64,000 nucleotides of DNA from Neglectibacter timonensis (GTDB lineage Bacteria; Bacillota; Clostridia; Oscillospirales; Acutalibacteraceae), in the NCBI RefSeq assembly GCF_900048895.1, contig NZ_LT160635.1, positions 62,001-126,000 of the forward strand. The letters are read 5' to 3'. The position numbers and the translations under genes were made by a program. The notes beneath the pieces were generated by a model that saw only the letters and a list, made by a program, of their open reading frames with translations, did no database searches and was not told where the DNA came from. Shown one piece after another: positions 18,981 to 36,048 of this stretch (its first letter is position 1; each line of letters begins with the position of its first letter).

Positions 18981-21900
18981 TTATTTCACCAGGTTTTCCA
19001 CAAAACGCATCAATATGGCGGCCACTTGGGCACGGGCGGCGTTGTCCTGGGGAGCCAGAACGCCCGTTCCCGTACCGCCGATAATGCCGGCGCTTACGGT
19101 CCAGCATATGGCGTCAACAGCGTATTCGCTAGTGCTTCCCGCATCCATGAAGCCGGACAGAGAGCCCTCTGCGGCAGGGCAGCCTGCGTAACGCCAGAGC
19201 ATGGCGGCGGTCTGTTCGCGGGTAACGGCATGGTTGGGGTTTGAGCCGTCGGATACGCTGTTGGCGACTGCCCATTCCATCCCCTTCTCATACCAGACTG
19301 CTCCGCCCTCGGTATCCTGTCCGTCGAATCGGGCCAGAACCGTCATCAGCATAGCGCGGGTCATGGGGCTGTCCGGGGCAAAGGACGTCTCGCTAATGCC
19401 GCCGAACAACCCGCGTGCCGTGACGAAATCGATGGCGTCCTGGGCCCAGTGGCCGGTGGTGTCGGAAAAATCCTTGGCGTTGTTCACCAGCACCAGTTCA
19501 GCGGAGCCTTCCAGCTTGACCAGCATGCCGTCCCCGGTGGGAAAGGACAGCTTGATGAGTTCGCCGGTGTCCTCGTCTCTTGCCACCATGCCGTAGTCCA
19601 CATCGGCGGGTATGGTCACAGTGGTACCGCCCACGTTCTGGGGGATGGTGACTTCGGCCGTCACATCCCTGCCGGGCTCATCCACGGTTTTGACCTTGAC
19701 GCCGTCGGCGCGGGTCTCGGTGGTAATCACAGTGCCGTCCGCCATGGTCTCCACCACCAGCGTGGAACCGTCCGGATTGGTGGTGGTCTCCGTAGTGGAG
19801 CCGCCGCTGGAGGAGGAATGGGTGCGGATCGTCAGAGTGCCGCCCACATAGTTGAAGTCATAGTTTGTGGCGCTTCCACCGCTGGGGGTCAGCGTGTAGC
19901 TGCCAGCCGCCGTATGGCTGTTCTTGACGGAAGGAGCCGTATAGCCAGCGGCTGTGCCGGCTGTCTCGTTATTCACAAAGCCGGTGACGGTCACTTTCAG
20001 CGCAGGCGTTCCGCCCACATAGATTGTCTCGCCCGCGTAAGTGGCGGTCAGGACTGCTTTGTTAACCGTCAGGGTAAAGCTGTCAGAGGCGGTGGAATAA
20101 TTGGCATTGCCCGCGAAAGTCGCCGTGATGGTGGTCGTACCCGCGCCGACGATGGTAACGGTATCTCCGCTTACAGTGGCGACTTTCTCATTGGAGCTGG
20201 TCACGGTTGCGGTTTTGTTGTCGCTGACGGTGTAGACAACATCAAAAGCTGCGCCGCCGTAGGCCGCTGTTTTGGCGTCCTCTGCCGGGCTGGTGATTGT
20301 TACATTCCCGGTATTAGTTGCCTTGGTGATGGTCACGCCGGTGCTGGAGACAGAATCGCTCTTGTCAGCGCCGTTCACAGCCGTCACCTTACAGTAGTAG
20401 GTGCTGTCGGAGGTCAGACTGCTGACGGTGTAGGTTTGACTGGTCGCGCCGCTAATTGCGGAGCCACTGTCGGGAGTGCCTGTATACCACTGATATTCAT
20501 AGGTCACGCCCTCAAGCTCATGGATGGCTGCGGCGGTCAGAATCGCGCTCTGGCTGCTGGTGATGGAGGATGCTGAGGCGGTTACTTCAACTTCGGGTTT
20601 ACCCAGCGTCCACTTGGCGTAGTAGGCCGTGGCGTTCTGAGGTGCTCCGCTCAACTTGGGTCCACTGAAATCCGCATTAACATACCACCCATCAAAGGTA
20701 TAACCTTCTCTAACCGGCGCGTTCAGCGCTTCGGTTGTAAATTCTCCTGCGGGGACAACGCCTCCGTTGGTAATGGCGTATACCAACTGTCCGTAGTTTG
20801 TATCATTATGGGCCAGCTTTATTTTTGCGGCCTCCGATGCAAGATAGACCACAGTCCCATGAGCAAGCGAGCCCAGACAGCCTGTAAATTCAGCATCATC
20901 CGTAAGAGCAGACATGTTTATGGTAGCCAGTCGGTGGTCATGAAACATATTTGTGCCGATTTTTTTTACCGTTGAGGGGATGGTGATAGCGGTTATAGTG
21001 GACTGCTGGAAAACAGAATTACCGAGCTCTTCCAGGCCCTCCGGCAGAGAGATGGATGTTATAAGAGAGAACTTAAACGAATTGTTTCCTATTTTTTTAA
21101 TTTGACTGTTCTCAGAAAAAACTACATTTGCAATCGTATTCGCATCTTTAGTTGATGAACTAAAAGCGGAATCCCCAATTTCGGTAACTTGCGAGGGGAT
21201 GACAATGGAGGTAATCGGTACGTTGGAGAAAGCGCTCGTTCCAATGGAAGTGAGTTCGGAGGGAAGCTCAATTTCTGTGATGCCTTTACAACCATTGAAG
21301 GTATTCGCCCCCAGCTTTGTTAATCTGGAATTATTTGCAAATGTAATCTTTGACAGCTTTGCACAGCCCCAAAAGCTGCCGGTCAGTTCTTCAACCGCTG
21401 ATGGAATTGTGATTTGTCCAATCATGTTGGAACAGTTTTGAAAAGCGTTTGGTCTAATTTCCGTGAGCGATTGCGGGAGGATTTCTTTCGCGTCTGATTT
21501 CTCAGTGTTGTTGAAATAGACCAGCTTGCTGCACGCCCCAAATGCGCTTTTACCAATTGCCGTGAGAATGTCTGGGTTTTCGAACGTGACGGTTTCCAAC
21601 GTTGAGCAGCTATAAAAAGCCGCTTCTCCAATCACCTCCAACTGTGCGGGAAAAGTGATTTCGGTTAGTTTAGCCATAGAGTGAAAGCCATTGAGCCCGA
21701 TCTCCCTCAACCGGCTGCCTCCTTCAAATTCCACAGCGGAAACATTCTTGCACCAAAGAAATGCGCAGCTTCCAAGTTTTGTAATGCCTGCGCCAATGAC
21801 TATTTTCGTAATCTGGTCCTGATACGCATTATCAGGCAGCGCAATACACCACGGATTGTCTTTTTGATCAGAATAATCCGCCATTGCTCCGTTTCCGGAG

Positions 21901-24671
21901 ATAGTGAGGGCATAGGCGGTTTTTTCTTCGCCATCTACCGTTACTGTTCCATTTTTGGTTAACGCCCAAGTGACATTTCTTCCCTCATTGACGGCAGGAT
22001 CACCGCAGAAGCCGCCGGTGATGAGCCACTTGGCGTAGTAGGTGCTGTCAGCCGAGACGGTGGTTGCAGGTGTTCCGGTCAATTCCGCGTTATCATACCA
22101 TCCATCAAAAACATAGCCTGTTTTAGTCGGTAGAGGGATTGCGGTTGCTTTAAAGATAGCCTCCTGTGTAAAGCTACCGCCTTTCGCATCGACTCCAGCA
22201 CTGTTCTGCACGGTTCCTTGTCTGGTGCTGTGGGATGCGGGGCCTATAGAAAAGCAATTAGTAACCTTCTCTGCGTTCCAAATGCAGTTTTCGATCATTC
22301 CGCTTTCATTCGTCCATACGAAAGGGCCCTTGTCATTACCGCTATTGTTTCCAGTTACATATACATCGGAATAGCAATTTTTGATGGTTCCTGCATTTGT
22401 GCCTCCAAGGCCTCCAGTCATGATATTTGGCCCTGCGTTTCGTGTATCGCCAGTACTGTAGCATTGGGAAATACTTCCACTGTTCTTTCCAAAAATAAGT
22501 CCGCTGTAATGTCCTATGCCACCAAGAAATGCCGAGTTTGTTACAGCGCATTTGGTCACTTTTGCGTTTTCCGAAATTGTTCCAACCAACACTCCGCTGT
22601 TTGGTCCGCCGTTTAGATATGCATTATCTAAATAGAGGTCTGTAATTTTTCCTGATTCTTCTAATGCCTTAAACAGGCCGCTTCCTTGTGTATACTCATC
22701 GGAAATTATAAAATTAGAAATTGTGTGTTGGTTGCCTTGCACATTCATTACTGCCGGCACAGGTGTAATGCTTTTTCCCAAGCAATCAATATCAGCCGTA
22801 AACGAAATAAATGCGTTAGGAATATTTCTTTGACTTATATTTTCCGAGAGAACCTCCAAATCTTCCAAATTTGAAACGAGGATAGGACTTTGATCCGTCC
22901 CCTCTCCGGAAAGAACTTTCGGTCTATTTAATGTAATGCGAAATATTTTCACGGTTTCTCCAGGATATGTGACCTGGAATGTGCAGGATTTTACCGTATC
23001 CAAAGATTCAAATTCCACTGTGGCTGGAAGTCCAGTAAGCGTTGCGCCTGTACTTGCAGAGGCAGAAATCGCAACAGAACCGCAATTCATGGGAATGCTA
23101 ATTGAAAGTTCCTGCGCCACAGCAGAACCCGTTCCATCATAACCGCCAATTACGGCATCTCCATCCATGATTTTTAGCTTTTCTGCATAAAATACAGTTG
23201 GAAAACCCGTCTTTGCTTGAAGTACAAGCCCTTGCGCTCCGTCAATACTCCAAATATTATCAAAATCTAATGCTGGAAAGTTAGAAGCATCCTTGAATTG
23301 ATTGGCGGAAAGCGTCGTTACATCTGTTTCAGCACCCGCTCCAATTGGAGAGTATGTTTCATGGCCCTCAGCATAACACCGCATAATAGAACCACTGTTG
23401 TAATTTCCGACCACTGAGCCTATATTCATGACCGGATTCTCAGCGTTGACGGACGCGGAAAAGTTTAGGACGCAGCATTGCTCAACGCTTCCACCCAGGT
23501 TGAAGCCGGCAATACCGCCGACATCGAAACTCCTGCTTGATACACTATTTGTTAAACAAAACGTTACATCATAAACGAAGCAGTTTGTATATATATTTCC
23601 CTGACGAAGTTCTCCAGCGATTCCGCCGCCTCTGATATTGCTGTTTCCTGATAAATTAAATGTAAAGTCCGAAACAGAACAATAGGAGATAATTCCACCC
23701 GTATCTAAAATTGTCGAACCTACGATACCGCCCACGCCACTTCTTACTGTAACCGTGCCATTTGAAATACTGCAATTTGTAATGGTTCCATCTTGCAGTT
23801 GAGGAGAAATCACACCACATGTATCGACTACATGTCCTTCTTCTGCCGAAATATCAATCTGGGAAACCTTTAAATTTTTTATAGCGCCTCCATTCTTAAT
23901 GATAGGGAAAAGGCCTTGCCAACTTGAAGTAGCGGAAATATAAAGATTAGAAATTGTGTGTCCATTCCCATTAAATTCTCCAGAAAACGCATAAGTATTA
24001 TTCCATGATGCCCAATAGTGTGCACTCAGGTTAATATCAGACTCTAAGCTGACGCTATAGCCAGTATAGGCGTTAGTTTGAAGCTGCTTTGCAAACCATG
24101 CCATTCCCTCGGAAGATGAAATTGTGACTTTTTTATTTTCCTCGTCAGCAGTATACCCATTAGGGCATTCTGTAACAGCCTCAATCCATGTGCCTTCTGG
24201 CATCGGCTCACTGAAAGTATCGGTAGAATATAGAACAGTAAGGATCCTTTCAATGACGATTTCCTGCTCATTAGTCAATGTCAGTCCGTTCTCATCAGAA
24301 AAGGCGTAAATGTCGGTAATCTGATTGTAGACCGCCTCTATCTGCCCCTCATCCTCCGGGCTAATGTCCGTAAGGGCGGGCAGAGCCGCGACTAGCTCCG
24401 AAAGCCGCTCCTCAGCAGAGGACCCCTCGCCGGGCTCCGTCGGCTCCTCCGCAGGGGGGGCCGACGGTTTCACATAGAGGGGACAGCTCTCGTCGTGGGT
24501 ATCCTCCGTACAGCCTTCCAATTCTGTGCAGACAATGGGCGCTCCGCCGTCCTGCGGTTCATCCTCCGCCGCCAGTGCAGCCGTGGGCAGCATACCGATC
24601 AGCAGGCACAAGGCCAGCAGACTCGACAGGATTCGGCTACTATAAGGCTTCCATTTGCGTTGCTTTTTCAT
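18981..24671 (-). CDS. giant SLH-anchored surface protein with BspA-like leucine-rich repeats
   Basis: A 1,896-aa exported protein. Order: signal peptide (about 1-35, TAALAAEDE); a spacer; a long GLUG-like beta repeat region (about 220-820, GGIAGFNLGGSVEQC type); a Listeria-Bacteroides repeat (FDGWYDNAEL, TYYAKW, about 880); BspA-type LRR_5 repeats (about 930-1260, IGEAAFYSCSTLETVTF type); a second FDGWY/YYAKW repeat (about 1350); Ig/MBG-like modules (about 1370-1590); a TETTTNPDGS linker; and three C-terminal SLH repeats (about 1730-1896). It is probably an adhesin. The LRR/GLUG-coding part is visibly more AT-rich than the SLH-coding part. The start has TAGGAGGG. It lies downstream of an invertible-looking segment and recombinase; in the order shown, no good promoter faces it. 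Confidence 0.9.
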   Translation of the reverse strand: MKKQRKWKPYSSRILSSLLALCLLIGMLPTAALAAEDEPQDGGAPIVCTELEGCTEDTHDESCPLYVKPSAPPAEEPTEPGEGSSAEERLSELVAALPALTDISPEDEGQIEAVYNQITDIYAFSDENGLTLTNEQEIVIERILTVLYSTDTFSEPMPEGTWIEAVTECPNGYTADEENKKVTISSSEGMAWFAKQLQTNAYTGYSVSLESDINLSAHYWASWNNTYAFSGEFNGNGHTISNLYISATSSWQGLFPIIKNGGAIKNLKVSQIDISAEEGHVVDTCGVISPQLQDGTITNCSISNGTVTVRSGVGGIVGSTILDTGGIISYCSVSDFTFNLSGNSNIRGGGIAGELRQGNIYTNCFVYDVTFCLTNSVSSRSFDVGGIAGFNLGGSVEQCCVLNFSASVNAENPVMNIGSVVGNYNSGSIMRCYAEGHETYSPIGAGAETDVTTLSANQFKDASNFPALDFDNIWSIDGAQGLVLQAKTGFPTVFYAEKLKIMDGDAVIGGYDGTGSAVAQELSISIPMNCGSVAISASASTGATLTGLPATVEFESLDTVKSCTFQVTYPGETVKIFRITLNRPKVLSGEGTDQSPILVSNLEDLEVLSENISQRNIPNAFISFTADIDCLGKSITPVPAVMNVQGNQHTISNFIISDEYTQGSGLFKALEESGKITDLYLDNAYLNGGPNSGVLVGTISENAKVTKCAVTNSAFLGGIGHYSGLIFGKNSGSISQCYSTGDTRNAGPNIMTGGLGGTNAGTIKNCYSDVYVTGNNSGNDKGPFVWTNESGMIENCIWNAEKVTNCFSIGPASHSTRQGTVQNSAGVDAKGGSFTQEAIFKATAIPLPTKTGYVFDGWYDNAELTGTPATTVSADSTYYAKWLITGGFCGDPAVNEGRNVTWALTKNGTVTVDGEEKTAYALTISGNGAMADYSDQKDNPWCIALPDNAYQDQITKIVIGAGITKLGSCAFLWCKNVSAVEFEGGSRLREIGLNGFHSMAKLTEITFPAQLEVIGEAAFYSCSTLETVTFENPDILTAIGKSAFGACSKLVYFNNTEKSDAKEILPQSLTEIRPNAFQNCSNMIGQITIPSAVEELTGSFWGCAKLSKITFANNSRLTKLGANTFNGCKGITEIELPSELTSIGTSAFSNVPITSIVIPSQVTEIGDSAFSSSTKDANTIANVVFSENSQIKKIGNNSFKFSLITSISLPEGLEELGNSVFQQSTITAITIPSTVKKIGTNMFHDHRLATINMSALTDDAEFTGCLGSLAHGTVVYLASEAAKIKLAHNDTNYGQLVYAITNGGVVPAGEFTTEALNAPVREGYTFDGWYVNADFSGPKLSGAPQNATAYYAKWTLGKPEVEVTASASSITSSQSAILTAAAIHELEGVTYEYQWYTGTPDSGSAISGATSQTYTVSSLTSDSTYYCKVTAVNGADKSDSVSSTGVTITKATNTGNVTITSPAEDAKTAAYGGAAFDVVYTVSDNKTATVTSSNEKVATVSGDTVTIVGAGTTTITATFAGNANYSTASDSFTLTVNKAVLTATYAGETIYVGGTPALKVTVTGFVNNETAGTAAGYTAPSVKNSHTAAGSYTLTPSGGSATNYDFNYVGGTLTIRTHSSSSGGSTTETTTNPDGSTLVVETMADGTVITTETRADGVKVKTVDEPGRDVTAEVTIPQNVGGTTVTIPADVDYGMVARDEDTGELIKLSFPTGDGMLVKLEGSAELVLVNNAKDFSDTTGHWAQDAIDFVTARGLFGGISETSFAPDSPMTRAMLMTVLARFDGQDTEGGAVWYEKGMEWAVANSVSDGSNPNHAVTREQTAAMLWRYAGCPAAEGSLSGFMDAGSTSEYAVDAICWTVSAGIIGGTGTGVLAPQDNAARAQVAAILMRFVENLVK

Positions 24672-24770
24672 AACGTTGTTTCCCTCCTAATATTGTCAAC
24701 AGAATCAACATTCCGCATATTGCCCGGCCATCATTTATGGGCTGGATGTGAACGGAAATGGAAAAACATA

Positions 24771-24804
24771 CGGCCTCATCACTCCAAAAAGGAGTGAAAG
24801 GCCG
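24771..24804 (-). terminator. intrinsic terminator inside segment 1
   Basis: CGGCCTCATCACTCC pairs with GGAGTGAAAGGCCG around AAAAA. On the minus strand it is followed by TATGTTTTT. It would stop transcription from the recombinase before the SLH gene in the present orientation. Confidence 0.78.
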
Positions 24805-24873
24805 TAGAAAAATAGGCCGCAAAAAATCATCTTTTCGCGGCTGAATTTTTTGCGCCGAAAAGCCATGGAATAC

Positions 24874-24902
24874 TTGCGTTTCTGCGGGATACATGCTACA
24901 AT
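24874..24902 (+). promoter_or_regulatory. promoter inside segment 1, pointing away from the SLH gene
   Basis: TTGCGT and TACAAT with a 17-base spacer and an extended TGC before the -10 box. It is the best promoter in the segment and faces the recombinase 3' end. Inversion between the flanking repeats would aim it at the SLH gene with no terminator in between. Confidence 0.7.
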
Positions 24903-24970
24903 TTTTTTACAATATGTAATCCTGATAGTTCTATGTCTGTAGGCTATCTGGACGGAATGTTGATTTCGTC

Positions 24971-25816
24971 CTATGAGACGAGTCCCAGCCGGTTAAGCTG
25001 CCGTTGATGCTCCGCGCCGGAGGTCAGCAAATAAATCCGGGTCGTCTCAATGGTGGAATGTCCCAGCACGTCGGCCAGTTTGGCAATATCCTTGTAGGCC
25101 CGGTAATAGGCGGTTGCAAAGAGGTGGCGCAAATTGTGGGGGAACACCCTGGAAGGCGCCACGCCTGTATATTTGCAAAGCCGCTTCATTTCCGCCCAGA
25201 TCTGACGGCGCGACAGACTTTTTCCGTTTCCAGTGAGAAAGATCTCACCGGAGACGTTTTTTTCTTTTCCGGCGAATTTTAAGAGCTTGCGGGCCAGCTT
25301 GTTGGGAATTAAAATGGTGCGTATTTTGCCTTTTAAGCGGATCTCTGCCCGTCCCCGCTGGACGGCCTCCAGGGTGATATACCGAACTTCGCTGACCCGT
25401 ATGCCTGTGGCGCAGATGGTCTCCATGAGCAGGGCCAGCCGATCCCGGCCCAGGTCCCGTGCTGCTGCAATGAGTTTGTCATAACTGTTCCGGTCCAGTT
25501 CCCGGGCCGGGTCCCGGAACAGCCGGCGCTGGACCTTGAGGAAGCGGGCGTGGCAGCCCTCCCAGCCCAGAAAGCGGAACAGGCCGTTAAGGGCGGAGAG
25601 GGCGGCGTTCACTGTGGAGGGAGAGCGGTGCTCTTCCAGCAGCCCCTCCTTCCAGCCTGCCACGGTTTCCTTTGTCACAGCCCGGCCGTCCAGCCATGCG
25701 GCGAAGGAATGGATGCTCCGCAGGTATTTTTCGATGGTGGCCGGAGCCCGTTCCTCCTGAATCAAATAGCGGCCATAGGCCGCAATCCGCTCCGGGGTCA
25801 GTTTGTAATTCTCCAT
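24971..25816 (-). CDS. tyrosine recombinase, probable invertase for segment 1
   Basis: A 281-aa XerC/D-like tyrosine recombinase. Arg140 (TGIRVSE), Lys162 or Lys164 (LKGKIR), His227 and Arg230 (PHNLRHLF), His253 (LGHST) and Tyr262 (TRIYLL) complete the catalytic set. The N-terminal SAM-like core-binding domain spans about 5-85. It is strongly similar to the recombinase at 32505-33353 over the catalytic domain (shared KGKIRTIL, VFPHNLRHLFA and IAKLADVLGHS). GAAAGGAG precedes the ATG. It is not next to phage genes; both copies lie directly upstream of a promoter-bearing inverted-repeat segment and an SLH gene. The role as local invertase is inferred. Confidence 0.93.
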   Translation of the reverse strand: MENYKLTPERIAAYGRYLIQEERAPATIEKYLRSIHSFAAWLDGRAVTKETVAGWKEGLLEEHRSPSTVNAALSALNGLFRFLGWEGCHARFLKVQRRLFRDPARELDRNSYDKLIAAARDLGRDRLALLMETICATGIRVSEVRYITLEAVQRGRAEIRLKGKIRTILIPNKLARKLLKFAGKEKNVSGEIFLTGNGKSLSRRQIWAEMKRLCKYTGVAPSRVFPHNLRHLFATAYYRAYKDIAKLADVLGHSTIETTRIYLLTSGAEHQRQLNRLGLVS

Positions 25817-28518: not shown

Positions 28519-28766
28519 CCGCTTTCTTTCGCAGAAAGCTTGGCAAAGAACTCTGAGCTCCAGCCCTCACGCCTTCGGATTCCGGGCTGGAGAAGGGCTG
28601 CCCTTAGCCTTCCCCTTGAGGGGAGAGGGGAAACAGATTCCCTGTGGGAATCTGCTGGATGAGGTGGAGTGTCTTATTCACTCCACCTCATCAGCCGCCT
28701 CGGCGAAGATCTCTGAACAGAGCGAAGAGATCTTTTGGACAGGCTTCCCCTCAAGGGGAAGCCTTA
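28519..28766. repeat. intergenic palindromic repeat, family member A
   Basis: It begins CCGCTTTCTTTCGCAGAAAG (28519), shared with 60139. It continues with a CTCCAGCCC/GGGCTGGAG hairpin and several palindromic modules: CTTCCCCTTGAGGGGA-type, CACTCCACCTCATCAGCCGCC, GAAGATCTCTGAACA and GCTTCCCCTCAAGGGGAAGC. The modules recur at 55898-55955 and 60139-60573 in other orders and orientations. The element starts a few bases beyond the araC ribosome site and fills most of the araC-GH4 spacer (28505-28904). Confidence 0.78.
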
Positions 28767-28904
28767 CCTGAGATTTGACGGCTAACATCTAGCATCATAC
28801 CAAAGAAACCTCACATTGTGCAATACCCAATACGGGATTTCCGTGATAAGCTAAAGCCGGAGTGGGCAGGAGCCCACGAAACGCGGAAAGGATGTTGTTT
28901 GAAA

Positions 28905-32504: not shown

Positions 32505-33353
32505 ATGGAGGAGTTCCGGCGGGTTACAGGCAAGCAGGTGGAAGAGTTCCTGGCTTACCTGGTTCGGGAGGAGAAAAGTGAGCGGACGGTGGAGAAATAC
32601 GGCAGAGACGTACGTGCCTTTTGTGCCTTTCTCCCGGTGGGGAAAGCGGTGGAGAAGGAACGGGTGCTGGCCTATAAGGAGCACCTGGTTAAGAGATATG
32701 CGCCTTCCAGCGTGAATTCCATGCTGGCGGCGGTGAACAGTTTTCTCGGATTTTTGGGAAGGGAAGACTGCCGGGTAAAAAAGCTGAAGATCCAGCGGAG
32801 GGCTTTCTGCCCGGCCGACCGGGAATTGAACCGGGCGGAGTACCTGCGGCTGATCCAGGCGGCAGAGGCCACGGGGCGCAGCCGGACTTCCCTGCTGCTT
32901 CAGACGCTGGGCTCCTCCGGCATACGGGTGTCGGAAACCAGCGCCATTACAGTGGAGGCGCTGCGGCAGGGAAAGGCCGTGATCCGCCTCAAGGGAAAGA
33001 TACGCACCATCCTGCTGCCGCAAAAGCTGTGCAGGAAGCTCCTTCGCTATGCAAAGCGGCAGAGGATTTTTTCCGGGCCGGTATTTCTTACCAGGAACAA
33101 GCGCCCCATGAACCGCAAAGAGATTTGGGCCGCATTCAAAAGCTTGTGCAGCCGGGCGGGAGTGGCAGCGCAGAAGGTGTTCCCCCACAATCTGCGCCAT
33201 CTGTTTGCCCGTACTTTCTACGAGGCGCGGCACGACATCGCGAAGCTTGCGGATGTGCTGGGGCACAGCTCCATCGACACCACCCGTATCTATATCGTGA
33301 CGTCGGGTGAAGAGCACTGCAGGACGCTGGAGCAGATGCATCTGCTGTTGTAG
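32505..33353 (+). CDS. tyrosine recombinase, probable invertase for segment 2
   Basis: A 282-aa tyrosine recombinase. Catalytic residues are Arg141 (SGIRVSE), Lys163/Lys165 (LKGKIR), His228 and Arg231 (PHNLRHLF), His254 (LGHSS) and Tyr263 (TRIYIV). The N-terminal core-binding domain covers about 8-85. It is a close paralogue of the recombinase at 24971-25816, and both lie upstream of a promoter-bearing inverted-repeat segment and an SLH gene. The extended -10 box TGGTACTAT at 32441-32448 is a probable promoter. The stop lies 41 bases before the first inverted repeat. Flipping of the adjacent segment is inferred from position. Confidence 0.94.
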   Translation: MEEFRRVTGKQVEEFLAYLVREEKSERTVEKYGRDVRAFCAFLPVGKAVEKERVLAYKEHLVKRYAPSSVNSMLAAVNSFLGFLGREDCRVKKLKIQRRAFCPADRELNRAEYLRLIQAAEATGRSRTSLLLQTLGSSGIRVSETSAITVEALRQGKAVIRLKGKIRTILLPQKLCRKLLRYAKRQRIFSGPVFLTRNKRPMNRKEIWAAFKSLCSRAGVAAQKVFPHNLRHLFARTFYEARHDIAKLADVLGHSSIDTTRIYIVTSGEEHCRTLEQMHLLL

Positions 33354-33394
33354 CGGTTACCGGGCGTGGCCACCCGTTTTCAGGCAAAAAAGAA

Positions 33395-33591
33395 TTGGGA
33401 CATAACGCACATTATGTCCCAATCTTACCTTGTCCGCCGGTTGATTCGCCTTCATTATGCCATACTATAACTGGAAAATCAAGGGATATGGAAATGGTTT
33501 TTCACATAAAAAACTGGAAGCGAGGCAGGTTTGCCAACGCATTTTACAATATACACAAAACAGGCGGGACATAATGTGCGTTATGTCCCGC
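33395..33591. repeat. invertible promoter segment 2 (24-bp inverted repeats)
   Basis: The left site (33395-33422) has 11-base arms TTGGGACATAA and TTATGTCCCAA around CGCACA. The right site (33564-33591) has arms GCGGGACATAA and TTATGTCCCGC around TGTGCG. The inner 24 bases of the right site (33566-33589) are the exact reverse complement of those of the left (33397-33420), including the asymmetric centre. This is what a tyrosine recombinase needs for inversion. The 145-bp interior carries a promoter facing the SLH gene at 33734. It explains most of the gap 33354-33733. Confidence 0.88.
33441..33468 (+). promoter_or_regulatory. promoter inside segment 2, facing the SLH gene (ON)
   Basis: TTGATT (33441-33446) and TACTAT (33463-33468) with a 16-base spacer. 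It is the best promoter of the interior and is directed to the gene at 33734. No comparable promoter is seen on the opposite strand. Confidence 0.62.
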
Positions 33592-33733
33592 TCTGATTTT
33601 ATTTTGAAGAGTTTCACTGCAAAAAACCTTTCGTCAAAATTGCCTTGGCCGTGGGTCGTATCCATAACAGCGGCAGACAGGACTAAATTTTTGCTGCCGT
33701 TACATCATGCTACAGAGAAGTGGAGGAAAGAGT

Positions 33734-35992
33734 ATGAAAAAGAGACGTTTGCTGGCAGTCACCCTGGTGCTGGCATTGGTGCTCGGTTCTGTGGCGCTGC
33801 CCGCAGGGGCCGCGTTCCAGGACGCAAAGGGCCACTGGGCGCAGGAGGCTATCGAGCGCTGGGAGGGCAGAGGCGTTGTCAAGGGGGACGAGAAGGGCTT
33901 CCGTCCTGACGATCCCATGACCCGTGCGGAGTTTGCCGTGGTGCTGGACCGGCTGATGGCCTATGCGGAGACCAAGGTGAATCCTTTTAAGGATGTGCCG
34001 GCGGGCACATGGTATACCAAGTCCGTACTGGGTGCGGCTGCAGCGGGAATCCTGCTGGGAACCGACGTGGACAAAGCGTCCCCCGGAGATAGAATCACCC
34101 GGGAGCAGGCCTTCACTTTGATGGGCCGGGCGCTGATGGTGAAAGAGAACGAGGCCGGCACGGCTGCCTACAGCGACGCGGCTGAGATCAGCAAGTATGC
34201 CAAAGGCTATATCGGCGGCATGACCGCGGCCGGGATTCTCCACGGCAGCAACGGGAAGTGCAGCCCCAAGTCGAACATCACCCGCGCCGAGGTAATCACT
34301 GTGGTGGACAACGCCATTGGGGACATCGTGGACAAGGCCGGGGAATATCAGAAAGATTCTGAAAAATCAGTGATTGTGAACGCGGCGGGCGCCGTACTCA
34401 AGGATATGGCCGTCAAGGGCAACCTGATCATCGCGGAAGGCGTGGGCAGCGGCGATGTGACGCTGGACGGCGTCACCGTGGAGGGCAGCCTGGTCCTGCG
34501 CGGCGGCGGGGAGCATTCCGTCGTCATCAAGGGAAAATCCAAACTGGGCACGGTGCTTGTAAACCGCAGGGACGGCAAGCTGCGGGTTGCCGTGGAAGAC
34601 GGCGCTGAGGTGGAAATCATCACCGTGGAGGACGGTTCCGACGACGTGAGGATAGAGGGCGAAGTGGGAACCCTGATTGTGGAAAATACAGAGGCTGCCG
34701 TGGAAGTGGCGGGCAGTGCCGGTAAGGTGGAGGTGCCTGAGACGGCGGCGGGAGCCCAGGTTAAAGTGGCCGAAGGCGCCAGTGTGGGCACATTGAACGT
34801 GGCCGCACCCAAGACGAACGTAGAGGTGTCCGGTTCGGTAAGCAGCCTTACTGTGCAGGAGACGGCAGAGGCCGCCGCAGTGACCGTAAACGCGGCCGCG
34901 GCAGTATCCAGTATGACTTCCGCAGCGGATAAGCTCAATGTGGACGGCAAGGGAACCGTGCAGAATCTCACCGTCACAGGCGGCGAGGGCGTTGTGGTTT
35001 CCGGCGACACCAAGGTCAGCAACGTGCAGAACAAGGGTGACGACAGCATCCTGGTGGGCGGCGAGGAGGTAAAGCCAGATACGGGTTCAGGCGGCGGAGG
35101 CGGCACTGTGACGCCCCCGGTAACACCCGCGCCCACAGAAGCTGAGCTGAAGAAAGCTTTGCTGGACAAGGTGAACAGTGAGATTCCCGGGGTCAACGGC
35201 GTTATGAGCTATGCGAAGCTCAGTGCTGCTGAAGCCCAGGGAAGCGGTTATGCGGTATCCGTAGAGGTATATGAGCCGTCCACAAAGCTGTCGGCCGTGG
35301 CAAACGATGTGCTGGCGAAAGTGATCGGCATTGTAAAGAACTATGGGCAGATTGAAACTCTGGACGTTGCCAGTACCACGGGAATTTCTCTGAATGCGGC
35401 GGACTGCGACCAGAAGATCATCGCGGCGGTGAAGGCCTGGGGCGGCAGCGGCTGGAATGGGGACACCACTCTGGCGGATGTGGTCGGCAAGGCGGATTTG
35501 ACGCTCACCCTCCATGGAGCCAGCGGCGGCACCTCTTATACGGCTTCCTACACGCTGAGCTTTCAGGATATGTCAGAACCGGCTCTGCAGCAGAAAGTGG
35601 CGGCTAGCTTTACCGGGCTGGGAACCAGTGTCGGCGAGTTTGCAAATCTGAGCGCGGAAGGAGCAGCGCTCAAGGTCACCGTAAAGACAGCTGCTGCGAA
35701 CAAAACTGTTGGAGAGGTGTACGATAAGCTGTTCAATCCTTTGATAACGGCGGTGGGCGGCTATGAGGAATTCAAAACAGTGAGGCTGGGGGATTCCGGG
35801 GCACTCACCAAGGAAGAGCTTAAGGATGCGGTGAAGCTTACCGCGGCGGTGAAGGGCTGCGGGCTCGGTGTGGCCGGGACAACGAAGCTCAGCCAGCTTG
35901 CCGGTAAATCGATCGATGTTGTGTTAGCTTCCAACGCGGGTAAGACTTATACCTTTACCCTTTCCTTTGTTAATGAAACGACAGAAGCATAA
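33734..35992 (+). CDS. SLH surface protein with beta-repeat region and duplicated C-terminal domain
   Basis: A 752-aa exported protein. It has a signal peptide (about 1-26, ALPAGAA) and three SLH repeats (about 27-205, FQDAKGHWAQEAIERW and so on). A Val/Gly-rich region with short beta repeats follows (about 210-445, GDVTLDGVTVEGSLVLRGG style), then a GSGGGGG linker. Last come two tandem copies of a ~125-aa domain of unknown function (about 475-605 and 620-750, both ending in a YT-hydrophobic-SF strand: SYTLSF, TFTLSF). GGAGGAAAG precedes the ATG. It is directly downstream of segment 2, so expression should be phase-variable. A strong hairpin separates it from the next SLH gene. Confidence 0.9.
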   Translation: MKKRRLLAVTLVLALVLGSVALPAGAAFQDAKGHWAQEAIERWEGRGVVKGDEKGFRPDDPMTRAEFAVVLDRLMAYAETKVNPFKDVPAGTWYTKSVLGAAAAGILLGTDVDKASPGDRITREQAFTLMGRALMVKENEAGTAAYSDAAEISKYAKGYIGGMTAAGILHGSNGKCSPKSNITRAEVITVVDNAIGDIVDKAGEYQKDSEKSVIVNAAGAVLKDMAVKGNLIIAEGVGSGDVTLDGVTVEGSLVLRGGGEHSVVIKGKSKLGTVLVNRRDGKLRVAVEDGAEVEIITVEDGSDDVRIEGEVGTLIVENTEAAVEVAGSAGKVEVPETAAGAQVKVAEGASVGTLNVAAPKTNVEVSGSVSSLTVQETAEAAAVTVNAAAAVSSMTSAADKLNVDGKGTVQNLTVTGGEGVVVSGDTKVSNVQNKGDDSILVGGEEVKPDTGSGGGGGTVTPPVTPAPTEAELKKALLDKVNSEIPGVNGVMSYAKLSAAEAQGSGYAVSVEVYEPSTKLSAVANDVLAKVIGIVKNYGQIETLDVASTTGISLNAADCDQKIIAAVKAWGGSGWNGDTTLADVVGKADLTLTLHGASGGTSYTASYTLSFQDMSEPALQQKVAASFTGLGTSVGEFANLSAEGAALKVTVKTAAANKTVGEVYDKLFNPLITAVGGYEEFKTVRLGDSGALTKEELKDAVKLTAAVKGCGLGVAGTTKLSQLAGKSIDVVLASNAGKTYTFTLSFVNETTEA

Positions 35993-36012: not shown

Positions 36013-36048
36013 ACCCCGCGGGGGAGCTTGCCCGTTCCCCCGCGGGGT
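36013..36048 (+). terminator. GC-rich hairpin between two SLH genes
   Basis: ACCCCGCGGGGGA (36013-36025) pairs with TCCCCCGCGGGGT (36036-36048), followed by TCTTCACTTTTG. It is an imperfect terminator that may allow read-through from the switchable promoter into the next SLH gene 30 bases downstream. Confidence 0.7.

Follow-up and report, generated by a model that had tools for sequence, protein, structure and literature searches.

In a 64,000-nucleotide stretch of the Neglectibacter timonensis genome (contig NZ_LT160635.1 of assembly GCF_900048895.1, positions 62,001 to 126,000 of the forward strand; hereafter the window, in whose own numbering all positions are given), a gene for a tyrosine recombinase is followed by two inverted 24-bp sites enclosing a short segment, and then by a gene for an SLH-domain surface protein (Table 1). 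Direct examination of the sequence bore out the anatomy given in the original prediction, which had been made from the sequence alone: the two sites are exact reverse complements lying 145 nt apart, and each is built of 9-bp arms around an asymmetric 6-bp core (CGCACA on the left, TGTGCG on the right). Inverted repeats flanking a short segment, one of the features by which invertons are recognized, are therefore present in the focal cassette. The prediction had also named the upstream gene a tyrosine recombinase with its catalytic residues and the downstream gene an SLH protein, and both assignments agree with the Pfam domains found here. A GGAGG motif at 33722-33726 precedes the ATG of the SLH gene at 33734.

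Among perfect inverted pairs with a spacer of 60-600 nt, the focal sites are the longest in the window, and the longest inverted arm in 30 windows shuffled by single bases was 14 nt, compared with 24 for the focal arm. The shuffles used for the site pairs and promoter calls below were likewise of single bases, not dinucleotides. The focal site pattern had no further copy in the 3.67-Mb genome at up to two mismatches; the same pattern read backwards, used as a control in this genome at the same setting, matched once per strand. Considered together with the family comparisons that follow, this arrangement is very likely a phase-variation cassette, one of a widespread family of such switches, in which the recombinase would flip the promoter-bearing segment, with the SLH gene OFF as assembled and ON after inversion.

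Table 1. Positions of the focal cassette, its predicted control elements and a second cassette in the window
Feature	Position	Strand	Remarks
Tyrosine recombinase (presumed invertase), 282 aa	32505..33353	+	Pfam Phage_integrase 2.6e-24; site pairs follow family members
Left recombination site, GGGACATAA-CGCACA-TTATGTCCC	33397..33420	n/a	Arms fit family form ACATAA-N6-TTATGT
Putative invertible segment, 145 bp	33421..33565	n/a	Between exact inverted sites; segments of related cassettes found inverted
Right recombination site, GGGACATAA-TGTGCG-TTATGTCCC	33566..33589	n/a	Exact reverse complement of left site
Target gene, SLH-domain surface protein, 752 aa	33734..35992	+	Pfam SLH 2.3e-26
Promoter-like TTGATT-17-CATAAT with TG extension	33454..33482	-	Faces recombinase (OFF); -10 lies 33 bp from left site
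Promoter of the original prediction, TTGATT-16-TACTAT	33441..33468	+	-10 lies 97 bp from right site; weaker, off family position rule
Left-site hairpin followed by CTTTTTT, terminator-like	33393..33424	-	Would stop OFF-state transcript before recombinase gene
Right-site hairpin, moderately T-rich tail, weakly terminator-like	33563..33592	+	Before SLH gene
Second cassette, recombinase	24971..25816	-	Same family; 51% identical to focal recombinase
Second cassette, site adjoining recombinase	24953..24965	n/a	13-bp perfect pair
Second cassette, site adjoining SLH gene	24703..24715	n/a	13-bp perfect pair
Second cassette, target SLH protein, 1896 aa	18981..24671	-	SLH domains

The recombinase family and its site pairs

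A protein search found relatives of the focal recombinase in 18 of 60 related genomes, where they share 46-60% identity with it; its own genome has four family recombinases, the focal one included. The family set combined these related-genome and own copies with the best 80 of at least 580 GTDB relatives and with further copies from nine of those genomes. Matches obtained by tblastn were dropped when they were below 44% identity, covered less than 150 aa or did not reach the C-terminus. Removal of 12 duplicates gave 124 distinct recombinases, and 109 remained once 15 with less than 400 nt of downstream sequence had been dropped. A site pair was called when an inverted repeat scored at least 12 within about 600 nt after the recombinase stop codon.

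By this rule, an inverted-repeat pair stands downstream of 96 of the 109 distinct family members. In an earlier version of the set, duplicates included and with the threshold placed at the 99th percentile of shuffles (11.5), the pair was found in 84 of 97 members versus 4 of 107 upstream controls, and in the examined loci 0 of 21 other tyrosine recombinases (below 42% identity) had one. The left sites of the family share the form ACATAA-TNNNNA-TTATGT (73 of 96 aligned), which was aligned by dyad symmetry and owes part of its own symmetry to that construction; palindromic cores occurred in 0 of 96. One half of the site, ACATAA/TTATGT, resembles the dif half-site, and a Firmicutes dif consensus had no match in the genome at up to three mismatches.

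The residues R141, K165, H228, R231, H254 and Y263 of the focal recombinase, which we take to be the catalytic ones, are invariant in 26 of 26 aligned family members. Its nearest solved structures and nearest NCBIfam models are those of XerA, XerC and XerD, but the protein differs from these equivalogs in missing every matched NCBIfam curated cut-off (145.5 of 220 bits for XerA, 121.4 of 329.6 for XerD and 109.1 of 335.15 for XerC). Its own genome also encodes tyrosine recombinases that share 28% identity with it. Among viral contigs, the recombinase had one match, 24% identical, and the general site pattern occurred once in each of three contigs.

Orientation of homologous segments

An all-against-all comparison of the segments enclosed by the sites, with an E-value of 1e-6 as the cut-off for homology, returned 44 homologous segment pairs from 33 cassettes, 31 of them in the same and 13 in the opposite orientation relative to the recombinase. 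Cassettes L078 and L103 are collinear from the recombinase up to and including the left site (83% DNA identity), and the segment together with the right site matches in inverted orientation. The segments of L096 and L115, which come from one metagenome-assembled genome, are also opposite in orientation, with a clear promoter call in neither, as are those of L129 and L132. In L127 and L140, the recombinase (70% DNA identity) and the target region (67%; 60% for the target protein) are collinear and the stretch between the sites is inverted; this inverted match has an E-value of 1.8e-14 with the sites and 6.4e-6 for the inner segments alone, which places it outside the 44 pairs.

Both orientations therefore occur among homologous cassettes, in these four pairs and in others, and by our reading the opposite-orientation pairs reduce to about three independent events. 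Because segments lie inverted between conserved flanks in these relatives, the sequence comparisons indicate that the recombinase family does invert its segments in evolution.

Promoter position and state of the focal cassette

The original prediction had placed a promoter aimed at the SLH gene, TTGATT-16-TACTAT, inside the segment and had described the cassette as captured ON. These hexamers exist, but they are absent from a consensus scan, which found no plus-strand promoter within 33300-33760 and reports instead a minus-strand TTGATT-17-CATAAT facing the recombinase, that is, in the OFF direction. The minus-strand element is the best match inside the segment, with a score of 9.5 versus 7.1 for the plus-strand pair, and is a predicted promoter by its sigma-70-like sequence match (9 of 12 positions, with TG) and its location at the usual position of the family.

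That usual position emerged from the 96 segments with site pairs, in which the -10 end of the best sigma-70-like match lies 40-50 bp from the site that it faces in 44 and 20-60 bp from it in 76. Strong promoter matches were present in 76 segments, with 60 facing the recombinase (51 of these at 20-60 bp) and 16 facing the target (13 at 20-60 bp); the corresponding number in shuffles was 33.2, of which 6.8 fell in the 20-60 bp zone. A -10 element usually 20-60 bp, and most often 40-50 bp, from the faced site offers a rule for reading the ON or OFF state from an assembly. A first promoter rule, applied to 83 segments, gave 55 OFF, 15 ON and 13 ambiguous calls, and the zone rule, applied to all 96, gave 65 OFF, 17 ON, two both and 12 uncalled, the OFF calls exceeding the 14.75 expected from shuffles. 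Among the 44 homologous pairs, all 27 called same-orientation pairs were concordant in their promoter calls and all 10 called opposite-orientation pairs were discordant, with seven uncalled; this agreement follows partly from homology itself.

Since the consensus scan and the family position rule both favor the minus-strand promoter, we call the focal assembly OFF with considerable confidence, which corrects the earlier state call from ON. That the cassette is nevertheless ON as assembled, with the forward hexamers driving the SLH gene, is unlikely. The forward pair does lie inside the segment, and promoters in both directions are possible, as in the two cassettes called both, but this pair is the weaker match and was missed by the scan, and its distance from the right site departs from that of 64 of the 76 strong family promoters, which stand 20-60 bp from the site they face.

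Proposed mechanism and the site hairpins

In the mechanism that we propose, the recombinase would exchange strands within the 6-bp cores of the inverted sites and thereby flip the segment, which appears to carry one promoter. As assembled, this promoter would read toward the recombinase and its transcript would stop at the left-site hairpin, leaving the SLH gene OFF. After inversion, transcription from it would cross the right site and enter the SLH gene (ON), and the level of SLH protein would be expected to follow the orientation of the segment.

On either strand, each focal site folds into a strong hairpin (z -4.6 to -7.9). The perfect stems measure 12 bp (left) and 11 bp (right) as assembled, and inversion in silico shortens both to 9 bp. 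A CTTTTTT run follows the left-site hairpin on the minus strand, so that the OFF-state transcript is expected to terminate ahead of the recombinase gene. The predicted minus-strand fold of the left site is not weakened by inversion in silico (-18.3 to -19.1 kcal/mol), and the plus-strand fold of the right site is predicted to be 6.4 kcal/mol weaker after it (-23.3 to -16.9 kcal/mol). Terminators at the sites were also considered as a family rule and rejected, because terminator-like sites among the 96 cassettes numbered at most 10 at any site and strand (left minus 10, right plus 4, left plus 2, right minus 3; control places gave 1 of 96 and 0 of 96). They are kept here as a feature of the focal copy only.

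The weaker right-site fold after inversion recalls the intrinsic terminator that, in the description given in PMC2784873, is proposed to act in the OFF transcript of cwpV in Clostridioides difficile. A switch of that type, in which transcription would come from outside and the orientation of the segment would make or break a terminator at the site, is very unlikely to be the whole explanation here. The 6.4 kcal/mol difference and the cwpV precedent speak for it, but a promoter-like site lies inside the focal segment at a position that is a rule in the family, and only 4 of 96 cassettes have a terminator-like right site on the plus strand. Terminator action of this kind may add to the promoter inversion that we favor. 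That the 24-bp sites are static operators or terminators that never invert is hardly credible. Both do fold as strong hairpins with T-rich tails, but most family site pairs are without terminator features (10 of 96 on the left minus strand, 4 of 96 on the right plus strand) and related segments were found inverted between conserved flanks.

Several observations weigh against inversion of a promoter in the focal cassette. In 13 of the 109 family members no site pair reached the threshold. The script made a wrong pick in at least one of the 96 cassettes (L052), where a better pair lies further downstream, and the focal spacer of 145 bp is short for the family. The 17 ON calls of the zone rule are near the 15.6 expected from shuffles; single ON calls are therefore weak, and our reading rests instead on the enrichment of strong matches at particular positions, together with the homologous inverted pairs. 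Promoter calls at single loci are also fallible, as in the cassette L031 of the same genome, which was ambiguous by the first rule, and the segment of the second cassette in the window is opposite to that of L132 by a weak match (E-value 0.001, 44 nt), with both called OFF. Additionally, no homologue of the focal segment was present among the compared segments, and the 28 other genomes of the genus held no orthologue of the focal cassette. In the genus genomes, a DNA search with the focal switch matched its own genome only, and a search of 29 genomes (own included) with the SLH target protein returned, outside the focal gene, only matches of 29-38% identity.

Because no orthologue was found, we infer the inversion of the focal segment, and the responsibility of the adjacent recombinase for it, by extension from the family. 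The invertible-promoter cassette with its own recombinase, as originally predicted, thus stands at the level of the family, in its site pairs and in homologous segments of both orientations; the expectation that related genomes would show both orientations was borne out among homologous cassettes and not for the focal locus, for which the genus offered no counterpart. Altogether, the focal cassette is real and probably functions as an invertible-promoter switch.

Relation to known systems

In Bacteroides, Mpi-type systems turn surface loci on and off through invertible promoters, and one recombinase can serve many sites. They differ from the system described here in phylum and promoter type, and here each cassette has its own recombinase. 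For cwpV, PMC2784873 places the promoter outside the invertible segment and reports that tests of seven candidates identified RecV (CD1167) as the recombinase, whereas the focal cassette has a promoter-like site within its segment and a recombinase gene next to it.

Also close in kind are inverton group 139 and tyrosine invertase group 35 of gut Clostridia, described as inverted repeats near a tyrosine recombinase, with examples in Intestinimonas butyriciproducens and Clostridium sp. D5 that change orientation in sequencing reads (PMC11892184). The spacers of these two examples, 227 and 205 nt, fall within the range of the family studied here, and the groups agree with it in recombinase class, adjacency and spacer range, a comparison made by description only; the main text of that paper contains neither 'SLH' nor 'S-layer' (PMC11892184). 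We considered whether our family is the reported I. butyriciproducens inverton, which has 14-bp arms and a 227-nt spacer. In strain An565 of this species the two cassettes show spacers of 262 and 253 nt, and in a second genome of the genus Intestinimonas a site pair accompanies three of four recombinases (spacers 233, 224 and 185 nt); as none matches the 14-bp/227-nt geometry, identity of the two families is not claimed.

A literature search covering openly accessible papers found no report pairing invertible promoters or invertons with SLH proteins or with 'Oscillospir-'. The kind of switch is known (PMC11892184, PMC2784873); within the reach of these searches, both the present member and its SLH target are new. 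The cassette links a promoter-flipping switch with SLH surface proteins in a bacterium of Oscillospiraceae-like affinity, whose genome has four such candidate cassettes.

Other cassettes and their target genes

The four cassettes of the genome each lie upstream of an SLH gene, and all were called OFF. Their four recombinases are accompanied by four different site sequences, which fits a dedicated invertase for each cassette. The second complete cassette of the window occupies 18981-25816 on the minus strand, with a site spacer of 237 nt (Table 1). In another genome, G065, which holds cassette L147, eight cassettes have site pairs with cores that, read by eye, are all different.

Target open reading frames (ORFs) were picked mechanically across the family as the longest ORF soon after the right site, and some are not true targets. 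No ORF was available for one cassette, and the Pfam scan covered 109 of the 116 listed ORF pieces. In these 109 pieces (own genome included; 25 of 71 families shown), SLH was found in 8, the N-domain of phage integrases in 12, GGDEF in 5, collagen repeats in 4, CpsB/CapC in 3 and EAL in 2, along with HD domain proteins and others. The GGDEF, EAL and HD proteins recall pdcB and pdcC, described as phase-variable cyclic di-GMP (c-di-GMP) genes of C. difficile (PMC11868660). Among 16 recombinase pairs of at least 80% identity, the mechanically chosen downstream ORFs were homologous in only four, which suggests that cassettes have been re-placed before new genes. Close recombinases standing before unrelated genes make such re-targeting directly testable.

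A wider and more tentative reading joins these points. The recombinase, site pair and promoter would form a portable module, re-placed across Clostridia before unrelated genes for surface proteins, capsule, c-di-GMP turnover or a second recombinase; different 6-bp cores would stop cross-recombination within a genome, and the SLH surface states open to the four cassettes would number as many as 16. The hairpins of the focal copy would double as terminators, the left one shielding the recombinase from OFF-state antisense transcription and the right one, stronger in the OFF state, shielding the SLH gene from read-through. We hold this combined reading to be possible rather than likely, and slightly less so than at first, because only the right hairpin is predicted to weaken after inversion.

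In L034, L035, L036, L041 and L043, the family recombinase is followed by a second, more distant tyrosine recombinase. An above-threshold site pair sits between the two in L035, L036 and L043, where one orientation of the segment may drive a recombinase. Of the eight family-like recombinase matches in genome G042 (L056-L062 and L067), seven lie no more than 150 nt from the end of a contig, as if the assembly had broken at repeated or flipping DNA.

Within the window, a 16-bp inverted pair with a 121-nt spacer at 28600-28770 lies inside a stretch that has 57 matching places in the genome and resembles a miniature repeat element rather than a switch. The genes at 33734, 36063 and 43073 encode three neighboring SLH-type proteins, the third judged by eye, and only the first follows a cassette. 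A hairpin at 36013-36048 lies between the first two.

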